Shown in pieces: positions 4,166 to 55,197 of a stretch of DNA of 64,000 nucleotides; the stretch's first letter is position 1, and each line of letters opens with the position of its first letter. The translations under genes and the position numbers were made by a program. The notes beneath the pieces are model-generated. The model worked only from the letters and a program-made list of their open reading frames with translations, did not search any database and had not been told where the DNA came from. The stretch covers positions 1 to 64,000 of the forward strand of contig NZ_JAKZKW010000006.1 in the NCBI RefSeq assembly GCF_022808695.1, in the 5' to 3' direction. Origin of the DNA: Fundidesulfovibrio soli (GTDB lineage: Bacteria > Desulfobacterota > Desulfovibrionia > Desulfovibrionales > Desulfovibrionaceae).

Positions 4166-4810
4166 ATGCGTAAACCCTCGATCTCCATGACTCCCGAAGG
4201 CTGGCCTTCCATCTTCCTGGCCACCACGGCCACCATTGTGTTCGCCGTGCTTGGCTGGTGCTGGGCCGCGCTGGCTGGCCTTGCCGTCGTGGCCCTGCTG
4301 GTGAACTTCTTCCGCGACCCCGAGCGCTTCGTGCCCTCCGAGCCCGGGCTGGCCGTGGCCCCGGCCGACGGCAGGGTCATCAAGGTCGGCCCCGCCATGG
4401 ACCCCATCTCCGGCGAGGAGCGCACCGTGGTCTGCATCTTCATGAACGTGTTCAACGTGCACGTGAACAGGGCCTGCGTGACCGGGCGCGTGAGCGCCAT
4501 GCGCTACTGGGAAGGCAAATACTTCAACGCCAGCTTCGACAAGGCCTCTGAGCACAACGAGCGCATGGCCCTGCAGCTGACCGGCGAGGAGGGCGACACC
4601 TGGACCATGGTGCAGATCGCTGGCCTCATCGCCCGGCGCATCATCCCCTGGGCCCAGATGGGCGACCACCTGGAGCGCGGCCAGCGCTATGGCATGATCA
4701 AGTTCGGTTCGCGGGTTGACGTCTATTTGCCGAGAGACTATCATCCTGCTGTAACAGTCGGGACGCGCACAGCGGCCGGACAGACCGTGATCGCCACGCG
4801 CCAGGGGTAA
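4166..4810 (+). CDS. psd: Phosphatidylserine decarboxylase
   Basis: It converts phosphatidylserine to phosphatidylethanolamine at the inner membrane. This is the short (~214 residue) form. It has an N-terminal double hydrophobic segment (about residues 10-45), then the FFRDPERFVP, APADGRV and NVFNVHVNR motifs. Near the end is KFGSRVDVYLP, where the Gly-Ser bond is the expected self-cleavage site giving the pyruvoyl cofactor. Start at ATG 4166 is supported by GGAAGG eight bases upstream; an upstream GTG at 4118 has no such site. It is followed after 30 bases by pssA, the enzyme that makes its substrate. Confidence 0.93.
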   Translation: MRKPSISMTPEGWPSIFLATTATIVFAVLGWCWAALAGLAVVALLVNFFRDPERFVPSEPGLAVAPADGRVIKVGPAMDPISGEERTVVCIFMNVFNVHVNRACVTGRVSAMRYWEGKYFNASFDKASEHNERMALQLTGEEGDTWTMVQIAGLIARRIIPWAQMGDHLERGQRYGMIKFGSRVDVYLPRDYHPAVTVGTRTAAGQTVIATRQG

Positions 4811-5713: not shown

Positions 5714-7249
5714 ATGTCCAATCGTGTCATCATTTTCGACACAACCCTGCGTGACGGCGAGCAGTCTCCTGGCGCGACCATGAACCAGGGCGAGAAGATC
5801 CGGCTTGCCCAGCAGCTTGAAATCCTCGGGGTGGACGTCATCGAGGCCGGATTCCCGGCCGCCAGCGAGGGTGATTTCCAGGCCGTGCAGGCCATCGCCT
5901 CCACCGTGAAGAACGTCACCGTAGCCGGATTGTGCCGCGCGCTGACCTCCGACATCCAGCGCTGCCACGACGCCATCAAGGGCGCCAAACGGCCGCGCAT
6001 CCACACCTTCCTGGCCACCTCGCCCCTGCACATGCAGCACAAGCTGGGCAAGAGCCCCGAACAGGTGCTGGAGATGATCGAGAAGGCCGTGAGCTTCGCC
6101 GCCTCCCTGACGCCTGACGTGGAGTTCTCCTGCGAGGACGCCTCCCGCTCGGAGCGGCCCTTCCTGGCCGTGGCCGTCGAGAAGGCCATCGCCGCAGGCG
6201 CCACCACCATCAACATTCCGGACACCGTGGGCTACGCCCAGCCGCAGGAGTTCCACGAGCTCATCAAGTTCCTGCTGGCGACGGTGCCCAACGCCTCCAA
6301 GGCGATATTCAGCGTGCACTGCCACAACGACCTGGGTCTGGCCGCCGCCAACACCCTGGCGGCCCTCTCCGCCGGAGCGCGCCAGGCCGAGGTGACCCTG
6401 TGCGGCATCGGCGAGCGCGCGGGCAACGCCTCCATCGAGGAGGTGTCCATGGCCCTCAAGACGCGCGCCTGCTACTACAACCTGGAGACGGGCATCAAGA
6501 GCGAGCAGATCTACCCCTCCTCTCGCCTGCTCTCCATGATCATCGGCCAGCCCATCCCGCCCTACAAGCCTATCATCGGCGGCAACGCCTTCGCCCACGA
6601 ATCGGGCATCCACCAGGCGGGCGTGCTCAAGTGCGCCGAGACCTACGAGATCATGACCCCTCAGTCCGTTGGCCGCGCCGGCAACGAGATGGTGCTGGGC
6701 AAGCACTCCGGGCGCAACGCCGTGAAGGCCCGCCTGGACGAGTTGGGCTTCACCCTCACGGATGAGCAGGTCAACCAGGTCACCGAGGCGGTGAAGGAAC
6801 TGGCGGACAAGAAGAAGAACATCTTCTCCGAGGACGTGGAAGCCCTCGTCCTGGAGAAGATCTACCGCATGCCGGACAAGTACAGATTCAAGCACCTCTC
6901 CGTGCTCTCGGGCAACATGGCTATGCCCCCCACGGCAGCCCTGTCCATCGAGGTGGACGGCGAGGAGCGTAAGCTCGCGGCTTTCGGCGTCGGACCCATC
7001 GACGCCGTGTTCAACACAATCAGCCAACTTACGGGGCGCAACCCCGTGCTCAAACAGTACGCGGTCAACGCCGTCACCGGCGGCACCGACGCCCAGGGCG
7101 AGGTGACCGTGCGACTGGAAGAGGGCGGCCACAAGTCAGTCGGCCGAAGCTCGGACAGCGACGTGATCGTCGCCAGCGCCAAAGCTTTCATCAATGCCCT
7201 CAACCGGTTGGCCAAAAAGGAGGAAGAAAGGGAATGCGCCAAACTTTAG
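5714..7249 (+). CDS. leuA: 2-isopropylmalate synthase
   Basis: First committed step of leucine synthesis: acetyl-CoA plus 2-oxoisovalerate gives 2-isopropylmalate. The protein has 511 residues. The HMGL-like TIM barrel starts with FDTTLRDGEQSPGATM and carries the metal-binding VHCHNDLGLA (H-x-H-N). The C-terminal ~120 residues form the LeuA allosteric domain, the usual site of leucine feedback. ATG 5714 is preceded by GGAG; the frame extends five codons further upstream without better support. leuC begins inside its last codons, so the two are translationally linked. Confidence 0.97.
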   Translation: MSNRVIIFDTTLRDGEQSPGATMNQGEKIRLAQQLEILGVDVIEAGFPAASEGDFQAVQAIASTVKNVTVAGLCRALTSDIQRCHDAIKGAKRPRIHTFLATSPLHMQHKLGKSPEQVLEMIEKAVSFAASLTPDVEFSCEDASRSERPFLAVAVEKAIAAGATTINIPDTVGYAQPQEFHELIKFLLATVPNASKAIFSVHCHNDLGLAAANTLAALSAGARQAEVTLCGIGERAGNASIEEVSMALKTRACYYNLETGIKSEQIYPSSRLLSMIIGQPIPPYKPIIGGNAFAHESGIHQAGVLKCAETYEIMTPQSVGRAGNEMVLGKHSGRNAVKARLDELGFTLTDEQVNQVTEAVKELADKKKNIFSEDVEALVLEKIYRMPDKYRFKHLSVLSGNMAMPPTAALSIEVDGEERKLAAFGVGPIDAVFNTISQLTGRNPVLKQYAVNAVTGGTDAQGEVTVRLEEGGHKSVGRSSDSDVIVASAKAFINALNRLAKKEEERECAKL

Positions 7250-52184: not shown

Positions 52185-52261
52185 CGCGGGGTGGAGCAGA
52201 CCGGTAGCTCATCGGGCTCATAACCCGAAGATCGTGGGTTCAAATCCCACCCCCGCAACCA
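52185..52261 (+). tRNA. Initiator tRNA-Met (CAU)
   Basis: A 77-base tRNA with a full cloverleaf. It has the CAT anticodon in a GGGCTCATAACCC arm, with the three G:C pairs of initiator tRNAs. The T-loop GTTCAAATC is standard, and CCA is encoded. The first base C1 opposes A at position 72, the unpaired end that marks bacterial tRNA-fMet. Confidence 0.96.
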
Positions 52262-52268
52262 GGAAGTC

Positions 52269-52309
52269 AGGGCCTTACGGAGATTATCCGCAAGGCCCTT
52301 TTCCTTTTT
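52269..52309 (+). terminator. Intrinsic terminator after tRNA-fMet
   Basis: AGGGCCTT (52269-52276) pairs with AAGGCCCT (52292-52299), extended by CGGA/TCCG inside past one A-C mismatch, followed by a T-rich stretch to 52309. Confidence 0.85.
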
Positions 52310-52516
52310 GATACCCTCTTGGTACCCAAGTCCGTAAGCTGGGGTAATGTGGTGGTCTGTTTGGCAGCATTTCCCGGGCTTGAGCACCCCCACAGGATTG
52401 CCCCCCAGCCAGGCCGTCTCCAGGTGTGAGGTGGCGGTCAATTTGAGACGCACTTTCACGCAATTTGATACGGAACCAACGCCACGTCCGGGCAGGAGGA
52501 GCAAAGCAAAAAGGAG
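52310..52516. other. Gene-free stretch between tRNA terminator and the tandem structured element
   Basis: No convincing gene on either strand. Antisense open frames that run through the tRNA are artefacts. Confidence 0.45.
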
Positions 52517-52618
52517 GGTGGACGGCGAGGCCCCTTTCCACGTTCGTGGCAACCTCGCATGGCGTTCCAGGCTTCCGCCCGTGCCACGGCCAGGGGATTT
52601 GCACCGTGTCCGTCCACC
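52517..52618. ncRNA. Candidate structured RNA element, copy A
   Basis: A ~100-base unit closed by a perfect 9-bp stem, GGTGGACGG (52517-52525) with CCGTCCACC (52610-52618). Inside are a two-level hairpin, (C)GAGG with CCTCG (52526-52530/52553-52557) topped by CCAC/GTGG (52538-52541/52546-52549). A small GGC/GCC hairpin follows (52570-52579), then CACGG with CCGTG (52585-52589/52604-52608). A second copy lies 176 bases further on, and its stems have different bases but still pair. I know no named RNA family with this layout. The strand is undecided: on the minus strand copy B has a GAAA tetraloop and a G-U in place of A-C, and on the plus strand the element would lie upstream of tamA. Confidence 0.55.
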
Positions 52619-52640
52619 AGGAACCACGCTTGAACGAAGA

Positions 52641-52684
52641 GCCCGGCAGAATCAACGCCGTCACTGTACGTGATCCTGCCGGGC
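52641..52684. repeat. Hairpin between the two structured copies
   Basis: GCCCGGCAG (52641-52649) pairs perfectly with CTGCCGGGC (52676-52684). A small inner TCAC/GTGA stem (52661-52664/52670-52673) sits in the loop. Confidence 0.6.
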
Positions 52685-52686
52685 GG

Positions 52687-52801
52687 AAGATGGCAGACGG
52701 TGGGGCCTCCCCTCCGCTTTCGCGGAAACCCCACATGGCGCTCCAGGCGTCAGCCCGTGCTACGGCAGAGAGAATGTCACCGTGTCGCGCCCGCCGATCT
52801 T
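52687..52801. ncRNA. Candidate structured RNA element, copy B
   Basis: Closed by AAGAT with ATCTT (52687-52691/52797-52801) and GGC with GCC (52692-52694/52793-52795), an outer stem unrelated in sequence to that of copy A. The internal hairpin is GTGGGG with CCCCAC (52700-52705/52729-52734) topped by CCGC/GCGG (52714-52717/52722-52725), and ACGG pairs with CCGT (52762-52765/52780-52783). In the core, 52729-52786 versus 52553-52610, I count about 45 of 58 identical bases without gaps. At least three stem pairs differ in both partners: C-G to T-A and A-T to G-C in the lower stem, and A-T to G-C in the upper stem. Confidence 0.55.
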
Positions 52802-52893
52802 TCCATATCAATTCGTTCGCCTTTTTGTACAGTGCGGAAAGTCCATTAAGTGCTCGAAGATACGCTAAAAATGCCCCAGAAAGCCAGGTCCGC

Positions 52894-52965
52894 CCACTGG
52901 GGCTACATTGACCTACCCGGCCCTTTTCGGGCCGGTGGGAAAATTGGGCAGCCGGTGTCCAGTGG
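52894..52965. repeat. Nested hairpin upstream of tamA
   Basis: CCACTGG (52894-52900) pairs with CCAGTGG (52959-52965) and encloses a strong inner hairpin, CCGGCCC (52918-52924 approximately) with GGGCCGG after a TTTTC loop. It may be part of a long leader of the following genes. No T tract follows. Confidence 0.5.
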
Positions 52966-52978
52966 ATAAGGAGAAGAG

Positions 52979-53242
52979 GTGCGCCGGTCGACGTTGCTTC
53001 GCCAGCGCATTCCGAGTAATATCCATGGAACTGTCGGGAACTCGCAGCGCGCGGCTCCCGGAATGTCTAGGGGCCCTGGCCGAGGGCGAATGCCGCCGCA
53101 GGGATGCCATGCCAGGGGGTGTTCCGGCCCCGCTGGCCGCCCCGGGCAACACACAACAGGTGAAGGCGAGACCCCAATGGCGGACAATGCACGCGTATCG
53201 ATTGTTTCCCGGATGCCGGTTCGCGCTGGGAGGGCGTGTTGA
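52979..53242 (+). CDS. Doubtful small ORF (87 codons) overlapping the tamA start
   Basis: A GTG at 52979 has AAGGAGAAGAGG right before it, one of the better binding sites in the area, and the frame ends at TGA 53240-53242, overlapping the first codons of tamA. The product is Arg/Gly/Pro-rich with no recognised motif and low protein-likeness. It may be a leader whose translation is coupled to tamA, or simply an open frame in GC-rich DNA. Confidence 0.25.
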   Translation: MRRSTLLRQRIPSNIHGTVGNSQRAAPGMSRGPGRGRMPPQGCHARGCSGPAGRPGQHTTGEGETPMADNARVSIVSRMPVRAGRAC

Positions 53243-55197
53243 AACGCCTGGTGCTTCTTGCGGCCCTCGTGTGCCTGCTTTGTTCCGCCGAGCTGCTCTG
53301 TCCCCTGTCGAAACCGCGCGCCCAGCCCGGTGTTGCGTCCGATACCCAGCCCAGTCCCCATGCCAACCCTTCCCCTCCCGCACCGGGCGAGCCCCAGGCC
53401 CTAGCGCCGCAACCGGCCCCGCAATCGACGCAGGAGGTTGACCAGGAACCGGTACAGAGCCCGGCCGGCCCACAGCGGCTACGCTATCAGGTCTCGTTTT
53501 CCGGTCTGACCGACAAGGCCCTCCTGGACCTGCTGCGGTCCGTGTCCGACACTGCCTCCAAGGCGGACAAACCCCCGGCCAGCCTGTTCCTCCTGAAGGG
53601 GCGCGCGCGGGGCGACCTGAAAAAGCTCAAAGACGCCATGGCCTCGCGGGGCTACTTCGCGGCCCAGGTCAGCTATTCGATCGATGACTCGACTACGCCC
53701 GTGCAAGTACGGTTCACGGTGGACCCCGGCGGCGCGTTCCTTCTGAAATGGGTGGATGTGGAATTGAGCGAGGGCAGCGAACCCGTGCGCTTCACCTTGC
53801 CGGAGGCATCCGAACTGGGCCTGGCTTTGGAAGCTCCGGCGGTGTCCAAGGACATCGTCAACGCCGACGACAAAGTCGTCAGCATATTCAAGAACCGGGG
53901 CCATCCTTTCGCCAGCCTCTCCCGCCGCAAGGCCGTGGCCGATCCGCAGGCGCTCACCCTGCACGTCACCTACGTCGTCACTCCCGGACCCTACTGCGTC
54001 TTCGGCCCCACGGCGCTCACAGGGCTCAAGGACGTGAAGGAGCGTCTCCTCCTGCCGCTCATCCCCTGGAAGGAGGGTGACGAGTACAACCAGGAAAAGG
54101 TCGATCTCTTCCAGCAGCGCCTCGCGGATCTGGGGCTCTTCGCCAAGGCCACGGCAGCCCCTAAGATTCTTCCCAAAGAGCCGGGGCGCGTCGAAGTGGA
54201 GGCCCAGGTCACCGAACGCAAGCCGCGCACCTTCAAGGGCGGCGTGACCTACAACACGGATGACGGGCCCGGGGCGCAGGTTAACTGGGAGCACCGCAAC
54301 CTCTTCGGCAACGGCGAACGCCTGAAGCTCCATCTGGCGGTGTCGCAGGTCAGCAAGGTGTTCGAGGCCAACTTCGAGAACCCCTTCTTCCTGGACCAGC
54401 GCCAGCGCCTGCTGGCCGGGGTAAGGGCCGCCGACGAGAACACGAAGGCCTACCACGGCCAGAACGCCACCGGGGAGCTCAAAATCTCGCGCAAGCTGGG
54501 CGAACAGGTCTCGGCCCAGGTCGGCCTGGGCTACCGGTCCAGTCTGGTCTACGACGACGCCGCCAATCCGAGTGCGGTCAACACCCGCTACAATCTGGCC
54601 TCCGTCCCGCTGGGGCTCTCGGCCGACACGCGCGACGACCCGCTCAACCCATCGAGAGGCTGGATGTTCGCCGTGAATGCCACGCCCTGGGTGGACGCGC
54701 AGGGTACGAACCTCAACTTCGTGAAGGCGGTCGCCGCCGGTTCGCACTACCTGCGCCTGCTGGAGAAACCGTCGCTTATATTGGCCACGCGGGCCTCGCT
54801 GGGCACCATCTCCGGCGTCTCGGCCTCGCGGCTTCTGCCGCCGGACATCCGTTTCTACGCGGGCGGCAGCGGGTCCATCCGGGGCTACGCCTATCAGAGC
54901 GCGGGGCCGCTGCGCGGGGACAAACCGCTCGGCGGGCGCTCCATTTTCGATTTCGGCACCGAGCTGCGGATTCGCCTGACCGAGATGTTCGGGCTGGTTT
55001 TCTTCATGGACGGCGGTAACGCCTTTGAGGCCGAGTATCCCGAACCGGGCAAGGGCCTGTTGCTGGGGGCGGGCACGGGGTTGCGGGTGTTCACGCCCAT
55101 CGGGCCGTTCCGGGTGGACGTAGCCACGCCGCTCAACCGCCGGAGGAACGTGGACGACGTGTTCCAGCTTTATATCAGCCTGGGCCAGGCCTTCTAG
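53236..55197 (+). CDS. tamA: Omp85-family outer-membrane assembly protein TamA
   Basis: A 653-residue outer-membrane protein. Signal peptide residues 1-~25 (LKRLVLLAALVCLLCSAELL) are followed by an unusual Pro/Gln/Ala-rich linker to residue ~80. POTRA-like repeats come next (residues ~85-340; LKDAMASRGYFAAQVSYSID, KNRGHPFASLSRRKAV, FQQRLADLGLFAKA), then a C-terminal beta-barrel with the Omp85 motif GSIRGYAYQS. It ends in a beta-strand with terminal Phe (LYISLGQAF). With TamB it helps insert outer-membrane proteins or move lipids to the outer membrane. GTG 53236 has GGGAGG just upstream; the adjacent TTG is an alternative. tamB follows after 65 bases. Confidence 0.9.
   Translation: MLKRLVLLAALVCLLCSAELLCPLSKPRAQPGVASDTQPSPHANPSPPAPGEPQALAPQPAPQSTQEVDQEPVQSPAGPQRLRYQVSFSGLTDKALLDLLRSVSDTASKADKPPASLFLLKGRARGDLKKLKDAMASRGYFAAQVSYSIDDSTTPVQVRFTVDPGGAFLLKWVDVELSEGSEPVRFTLPEASELGLALEAPAVSKDIVNADDKVVSIFKNRGHPFASLSRRKAVADPQALTLHVTYVVTPGPYCVFGPTALTGLKDVKERLLLPLIPWKEGDEYNQEKVDLFQQRLADLGLFAKATAAPKILPKEPGRVEVEAQVTERKPRTFKGGVTYNTDDGPGAQVNWEHRNLFGNGERLKLHLAVSQVSKVFEANFENPFFLDQRQRLLAGVRAADENTKAYHGQNATGELKISRKLGEQVSAQVGLGYRSSLVYDDAANPSAVNTRYNLASVPLGLSADTRDDPLNPSRGWMFAVNATPWVDAQGTNLNFVKAVAAGSHYLRLLEKPSLILATRASLGTISGVSASRLLPPDIRFYAGGSGSIRGYAYQSAGPLRGDKPLGGRSIFDFGTELRIRLTEMFGLVFFMDGGNAFEAEYPEPGKGLLLGAGTGLRVFTPIGPFRVDVATPLNRRRNVDDVFQLYISLGQAF

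Follow-up and report, generated by a model that had tools for sequence, protein, structure and literature searches.

Two tandem RNA copies in the window

The window, a stretch of 64,000 nucleotides from Fundidesulfovibrio soli (contig NZ_JAKZKW010000006.1), carries two tandem copies of an RNA element on its plus strand, copy A at 52514-52622 and copy B at 52689-52799, both of the class that we call type A. They lie between a tRNA-Met (CAT) gene (52185-52261, plus strand; ARAGORN on locus L001, and Rfam) and a 653-codon frame from the ORF list (53236-55197, plus strand), which the original prediction labelled tamA. We built a covariance model, R1, from 13 sequences (alignment A2); it scored copy A at 100 bits (E 1.3e-18) and copy B at 113.9 bits (E 1.8e-21), values that are partly so by construction because both copies are among the 13 sequences, and it returned only one further match in the window (18.3 bits, E 0.066). 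A pattern derived from the family had a single match in the window, copy B, and no match in 100 shuffles.

The fold is compact and pseudoknotted, with many conserved unpaired bases. Its helices are the closing stem P1, P2, which encloses an inner hairpin of variable form, a P3 hairpin that also varies, and the 5-bp hairpin P4; the loops of P2 (CUCCC) and P4 (GGGAG) form a kissing pseudoknot. According to the alignment and the pair listing, the 5' strand of P1 in copy A (52517-52524, plus strand, as are all parts given here) pairs with 52611-52618, and the 5' strand of the pseudoknot, CCCTT (52532-52536), pairs with AGGGG at 52592-52596, which lies in the loop of hairpin P4 (CACGG/CCGTG, 52585-52608); this pseudoknot helix covaries in both homologue sets described below. 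In copy B, P1 (52692-52699 with 52788-52795) contains two A-C mismatches, the pseudoknot (CTCCC at 52707-52711 with GAGAG at 52768-52772) contains one, and P4 (TACGG/CCGTG) spans 52761-52784. The original prediction, which placed a tandem structured element at 52517-52801, had seen P1, P2 and the inner hairpin and overlooked P4 and the pseudoknot. The compensatory changes that it reported in the lower stem (GCGAGG/CCTCGC in copy A, GTGGGG/CCCCAC in copy B) and in the inner stem were recovered in the alignment, but the closing stems that it took to be unrelated are one and the same helix, with GGTGGACG on the 5' side of P1 in copy A and GGCAGACG in copy B, the latter having an additional AAGAT/ATCTT outside P1.

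A further hairpin (GCCCGGCAG..CTGCCGGGC, 52641-52684, plus strand) stands between the copies; the segment around it (52622-52690) folds with a z score of -2.35 on the plus strand and -3.93 on the minus strand, and L002, a locus with tandem copies of its own, has a counterpart between them in the alignment. The window (about 52438-52471) and L002 (about 1384-1416), which represent two genera, also have a stretch in common upstream of the tandem RNA pair (TCAATTTGAGACGC..TTTC.CGC.ATTTGATAC). No sigma-70-like promoter was found in 52250-53000, and the window sequence had no match in nucleotide searches of phages and plasmids. Locus L011, with a 29-base match in the upstream flank only, was dropped. 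Folded alone and compared with dinucleotide shuffles, the plus strands of copies A and B had no extra stability (z 0.03 and -0.36) and the minus strands folded better (z -1.26 and -2.14); such stand-alone folding was rejected as evidence, being uninformative in DNA so rich in G+C. The case for a structured RNA is comparative, not energetic.

A broad family of structured RNAs

The search pattern CTACGGCNRRGRGAN{3,6}ACCGYGTC retrieved at least 120 stretches from viral contigs and 110 from genome contigs. R1 matched all 99 loci of a first batch (11 from the window's own genome and relatives, 88 of the at least 120 viral loci; 101 matches) and 86 of the 99 loci of a second one (99 of the 110 bacterial-genome loci; 90 matches), so that every viral locus scanned (88 of 88) and 86 of the 99 scanned from bacterial genomes were confirmed. 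Twelve of the 13 pattern loci without an R1 match looked by eye like coding or chance matches, and the other one (L134) appears to be a 3' fragment of a real element.

In set 1 (89 distinct homologues), 96.3% of the cells pair, against 79.8% after shuffling, and the covariation score is 0.405, against 0.113 for shuffled and at most 0.088 for slid alignments; the figures for set 2 (90 rows) are 96.1% paired and a score of 0.379, against 0.110 shuffled and at most 0.081 slid. The pseudoknot alone is paired in 97.9% (set 1) and 97.7% (set 2), with two and three doubly changed pairs, although the conservation of P4 and of the pseudoknot's 3' strand is partly built in, because the search pattern fixes P4 and part of that strand; P1, P2, P3 and the 5' strand of the pseudoknot are free of this constraint. 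The lengths of the 165 distinct elements are spread over the three remainders (49, 59 and 57), and no reading frame is open in more than 114 of them. At the element, Rfam 15 gave no match at gathering level in the window and no credible one in 11 loci scanned at E up to 5, its ribozyme and riboswitch classes giving no match there at all. An 18.3-bit match to a viral frameshift element in L007 (gathering threshold 40), on the opposite strand and touching the element, was judged to be due to chance, and weak Rfam matches elsewhere in L007 were disregarded.

Most of what the original prediction had said about the element as such is borne out by these results: it had proposed selection on RNA structure, no gene and no named riboswitch or sRNA, had called for a covariance-model search, and had named stems lost in homologues or a conserved protein across the element as possible refutations. 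The search with the 13-sequence model recovered a large family in which the stems are kept, and a conserved protein was looked for and not found. Within the homologues compared, the element is a broad structured-RNA family with strong covariation, absent from Rfam 15 where tested.

Association with the C-terminal domain of gpF

In 118 of the 191 matches the RNA is preceded on its own strand by a Mu gpF-like gene, a median of 2 b separating the end of that frame from the model start. In 76 of the 191 it is followed by gpG, the matched part of which begins 10-66 b from the RNA (10th-90th percentile of the 76 matches). The domain at the C-terminus of gpF was found in 117 of the 118 gpF-linked matches (L176 with a partial domain only), and its match ends between 120 b before and 60 b after the RNA start in 112 of them; L053 has RNA and gpF with no domain found. 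Because 117 of the 118 have this domain upstream on the same strand, the plus strand of the window is by this measure the sense strand. A single copy is usual, and same-strand tandem copies were seen only in orphan loci (the window, L002, L192 and L195; see below). The original reading as a tamA leader or tandem riboswitch is thus not upheld by the homologues, most of which lie 3' of a phage gpF as single copies, and the features of glycine-type tandem riboswitches are missing as well, with no riboswitch match and varying genes downstream of the orphans. In L047, L205, L010, L215 and L067 the distance between the gpF stop and the RNA is 295-2140 b. In L047 and L205, type A RNA begins 0.93-0.98 kb after the gpF stop, an extra DNA adenine methylase-like gene (by eye) stands between the two, and a common stretch, GTGCCGCCCGGCTC, follows soon after gpF.

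The gpF C-terminal domain of RNA-bearing phages comprises about 140 residues. Among 83 members compared with Pfam at E up to 1, PBECR3 was matched in 26 (best 6.3e-5), LPD13 in 17, MuF_C in 12 (best 0.0045) and PBECR2 in two. Full-length gpFs matched Phage_Mu_F in 18 of 18 cases and no other family at E up to 0.01, and the minor head protein PHROG 220 in three of three; an N-terminal MuF domain in a phage head protein, as known from MuF toxins, is therefore present. NCBIfam gave the SPP1 gp7 domain only, and a PDB sequence search with the domain profile gave two matches, both irrelevant. The AlphaFold2 model of the domain has a mean pLDDT of 95.4. Foldseek matches were weak, with RelE first (E 0.028) and unrelated proteins in the next rows; after re-alignment, the rows shown were mainly BECR RNases or toxins (BrnT and CdiA-NC101 with Z 5.6, RelE and 1tfk, presumably colicin D, with Z 4.2), every Z being under 8. 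The ToxN/AbiQ fold was not among the re-aligned structures shown, an absence that excludes nothing.

Four residues, K71, H76, Y84 and S130, are present in 82, 82, 83 and 82 of 83 rows, all from RNA-bearing loci; in the 34 loci with a strong domain match that were found by gpF seeding (see below), Ser is present in 34 and His in 31. Iyer et al. (2017, PMC5512222) assign the C-terminus of Mu gpF to the PBECR domains and regard the Mu version as inactive; active orthologues, in their prediction, are RNases, and the usual active site is His plus Ser/Thr, with Arg for His in one family. The conserved residues correspond to this His plus Ser/Thr layout, and the domain is predicted, with the help of the structural model, to be of PBECR/MuF-C type, a ribonuclease of BECR fold.

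The converse search used gpF seeds chosen independently of the RNA (one seed set included C-terminal peptides) and yielded 180 viral loci: 34 with a strong domain match, 128 others (62 with another tail, 61 short, five with a weak domain match), 17 that were cut off and set aside, and L327, set aside with the RNA present and the N-terminal segment absent. All 34 loci with a strong match carry an RNA, which is type A by R1 in 32 and belongs to a second class, type B, in two; none of the 128 carries one. With N-terminal gpF seeds alone, the numbers are 18 of 18 against 0 of 91, and when each 75% cluster is represented by a single locus they become 6 of 6 and 0 of 42 (Fisher p 8e-8, a value that ignores phage relatedness); the locus counts are not independent, because phages are related. 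A gpF in L300 (from 2501) has a different C-terminal domain with an HEFAH motif, metallopeptidase-like by eye, and no RNA. Among 59 relatives, a strong domain match occurs in seven genomes, and in every one of them the RNA adjoins the domain or, in G020, lies 0.4 kb from it; in G029 the domain match is weak (6.9e-6) and the RNA is absent. A sample of 297 genomes of the phylum contained four domain-bearing genomes, two with R1 matches beside the domain and two (L472, L474) with type B or A-like copies recognized by eye or at 33.6 bits. Of the four domain copies, two are interrupted by a stop (G174, G158) and a third is a short frame (G326).

Isolated phages complicate the picture. R1 found no RNA in 14 isolated-phage gpF loci, the sole weak match (MMP7, 23 bits, opposite strand) being dismissed; in seven of the 14, none with RNA, the next annotated gene overlaps the gpF end or lies within 4 b of it. 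Two of these phages, B23 (E 9.5e-23) and SuMu (4.3e-19), match the domain profile strongly and have neither type A nor type B; JBD18 matches weakly and has no RNA by R1; Mu_3F6 and JBD88a have a tail of similar length with no profile match and no aligned His; ThpS-P1, Vibrio 1.159, YPCBV-1 and PhiKM have short gpFs. The domain of B23 is without Lys, His and Ser, and that of SuMu keeps Lys, Tyr and Ser and has no His. L443 shows the same residue pattern and has the RNA, so that a lost His alone does not explain a missing RNA. Since L443 (Gly) as well as L351 and L355 (Arg) have the RNA without an aligned His, the RNA seems to be linked to the domain rather than strictly to its His, and SuMu and L443 together blur the link to an intact active site. 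The partnership of RNA and domain is nevertheless well supported by these comparisons.

Type B RNA (...CAGC....GCCGGGAGAYTTTGCCGC...) is related to type A yet distinct and was first recognized by eye in L472, L357 and L359, contigs that also supplied L496 (that of L357) and L485 (that of L359). It was identified by pattern and eye, the covariation figures above concerning type A alone. A pattern scan gave 22 loci, of which 17 were genuine by eye and the other five without the domain; in 16 of the 17, type B follows shortly after the same gpF domain (split over two frames in L476), and L480 has a copy without it. R1 at E up to 0.1 found no type A in the 17 loci, and Rfam gave no match at the type B places in L475, L479, L481, L486, L472 and L214. 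Because two RNA classes share the place after one domain, the RNA would belong with the domain, as its partner, more than with the gpF-gpG junction. On the domain tree, supported branches force at least two changes of RNA type, which makes types A and B look interspersed, in a thin sample (five type B and 42 type A rows, every second row of A7) whose count is hardly below that of shuffles. In the Haemophilus phage SuMu (L263, about 4290-4390), a different folded stretch closed by CCGCTAG/CTAGCGG stands right after the gpF stop; its fold has a z score of -2.91, with 3 of 200 shuffles equally good, and it is possibly a third RNA class for a variant domain.

Orphan copies and the proposed role of the RNA

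We call a copy an orphan when at least 400 b lie upstream of it and neither gpF nor the domain is on the locus. This applies to 57 of the 191 matches (55 distinct); reading six frames through stops revealed no remnants of gpF or domain on the 57 loci, which measure about 8 kb, so that a distant gpF could be missed, and one orphan (L016) has gpG downstream. The 55 distinct orphans pair about as well as 98 distinct linked copies (P1 95.0 against 93.3%, P2 97.9 against 98.8%, P3 90.9 against 92.6%, pseudoknot 97.1 against 98.2%), a comparison in which decayed orphans are under-counted because the search pattern fixes P4 and part of the pseudoknot. Four of 11 RNA-bearing genomes in the set of relatives (the window's own, G008, G010 and G025) and six of eight in the 297-genome phylum sample (the own genome included) have no domain match. 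The window's tandem copies count as orphans, since their genome has neither a domain nor a Phage_Mu_F match. L192 has a doubly compensated pseudoknot (CUGUC/GACAG), and L214 carries an A-B-A array (type B at about 6775-6900) with no toxin on the locus.

Thirty chosen orphan neighbours were compared with Pfam: 12 had no match, and the others included restriction-modification proteins, integrases, a recombinase, an antirepressor, a CI-like repressor, a phage tail protein, a Mu-like protease and ordinary chromosomal genes. PADLOC, run on eight neighbours, recognized three restriction-modification proteins and gave no match for five. One frame in L156 (5094-6590) fuses a MuB C-terminal domain to a Mu-like protease I, with an orphan RNA 41 b downstream, and probably remains from a prophage that suffered a deletion.

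The link to a nuclease-type domain, the position of an immunity gene, the second RNA class and the orphans are together best explained if the RNA is the antitoxin of a phage-delivered, RNase-like gpF domain and the window pair is an orphan immunity cassette, a reading with inhibition as an inferred step that we hold to be somewhat better than an even bet. On this reading gpF would enter the next host together with the phage DNA, its C-terminal domain would act as an RNase cutting host or rival RNA, and the RNA, supplied by prophage or host, would bind and block the domain so that its carrier is not poisoned; the tandem pair of the window, in a genome where no gpF gene was found, would protect against such phages. 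Orphan immunity genes kept without a toxin, sometimes in arrays of different kinds, are familiar from contact-dependent and type VI systems, from which the present case differs in that the putative immunity would be conferred by RNA instead of protein.

In type III toxin-antitoxin systems, the RNA usually stands upstream of the toxin as tandem repeats and the toxins have a ToxN/AbiQ fold. Like ToxIN, CptIN and TenpIN, the present loci have a predicted RNase-like protein part adjoining a pseudoknotted RNA, and tandem RNA copies occur, although here in orphans only. Unlike in those systems, the toxin-like part is a phage head protein domain of predicted BECR fold, and the RNA is downstream of the gene and single in gpF-linked loci. 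The proposed antitoxin would work like type III, but as neither order nor repeats agree there and the toxin fold is a prediction, it is not classed as one. Other close counterparts are the MuF polymorphic toxins, defined by Jamet et al. (2017, PMC5576092), who sought immunity in small ORFs after the gene. Those toxins and the PBECR proteins of PMC5512222 share with our loci a MuF protein with a C-terminal domain that is predicted here to be PBECR/MuF-C-like, and the RNA occupies the expected place of the immunity gene; the published candidates are, however, small proteins, whereas in most linked loci a structured RNA fills the slot and no small immunity ORF directly follows the putative toxin gene. 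The consulted parts of both papers mention no such RNA partner, and none is described in the titles and abstract openings listed, mainly open-access, on PBECR, MuF, type III, and RNA or orphan immunity.

Adjacency alone would also fit an RNA that is a substrate or a cofactor of the domain. If the domain cut the gpF-gpG message at the fold and so set late gene expression, the same co-occurrence and position would be expected, and RegB, a phage BECR protein, is described in PMC5512222 as cutting early phage messages; nevertheless, a self-regulatory target of this kind is unlikely in view of orphans with intact folds in genomes without a domain match, of the five loci in which the RNA lies far from the gpF stop, and of a kissing fold that is conserved as a whole, beyond what a cut site would usually need. 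A structural cofactor, for example one that is packaged into virions or that helps to assemble the head, would suit gpF as a head protein, and RNA binding has been suggested for the inactive Mu domain (Iyer et al., PMC5512222), but isolated phages without the RNA exist with the domain present or absent, the Lys, Tyr and Ser that hardly vary and a His kept in most cases speak for catalysis, and the 57 orphan loci have no gpF remnant, which together make this role quite improbable. We give as little credence to a new class of self-cleaving ribozyme that would cut phage messages between genes, as proposed for prophage hammerheads. The strongest association reported for hammerhead and twister is with Mu-like phage genes (PMC10085705), and hammerheads are described as flanking prophage genes (PMC3088659), so that the neighbourhood and the compact pseudoknotted fold with its conserved unpaired bases are shared with these and other ribozymes of Mu-like phages; yet the present RNA has no Rfam match and tracks a nuclease-type domain rather than the phage region or the gpF-gpG junction, being absent from all 128 gpF loci without a strong domain, and Rfam gave no match at gathering level in the 14 isolated-phage gpF loci and in 20 of the 128. 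A leader or riboswitch of the next gene (tamA in the window, gpG in the phages) would account for an RNA that often stands shortly before the matched part of gpG, but several isolated phages have an annotated gpG-like gene and no RNA, and the scanned orphan neighbours are of many kinds, and we regard this as the remotest of the explanations.

For the window alone, and not for the family, the copies might be debris of a dead prophage, as is conceivable for an RNA that is phage-linked elsewhere, with a copy B carrying two mismatches in P1 and one in the pseudoknot, and with no promoter found. This has perhaps a small chance of being correct, since two diverged tandem copies both keep nearly all pairs, orphans in general pair almost like linked copies, the pseudoknot of L192 is doubly compensated, and the same tandem layout recurs in another genus (L002). 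Returning to the antitoxin reading, the window copies are probably RNA antidotes, left over or recruited, against a toxin brought by Mu-like viruses. A wider proposal, which we advance tentatively and would rate slightly below an even chance, is that Mu-like phages carry an RNA-immunised RNase with at least two interchangeable RNA classes, and that bacteria as well as rival mobile elements keep orphan, sometimes mixed arrays (A-A in the window, A-B-A in L214) as anti-phage immunity.

Because the family is large and has no Rfam 15 match where tested, the annotation of genomes is affected. An antidote to a phage or polymorphic toxin is pictured as a protein, and an RNA in the immunity slot would, if the antitoxin reading is true, extend this arsenal and explain the role of the C-terminal part of gpF.
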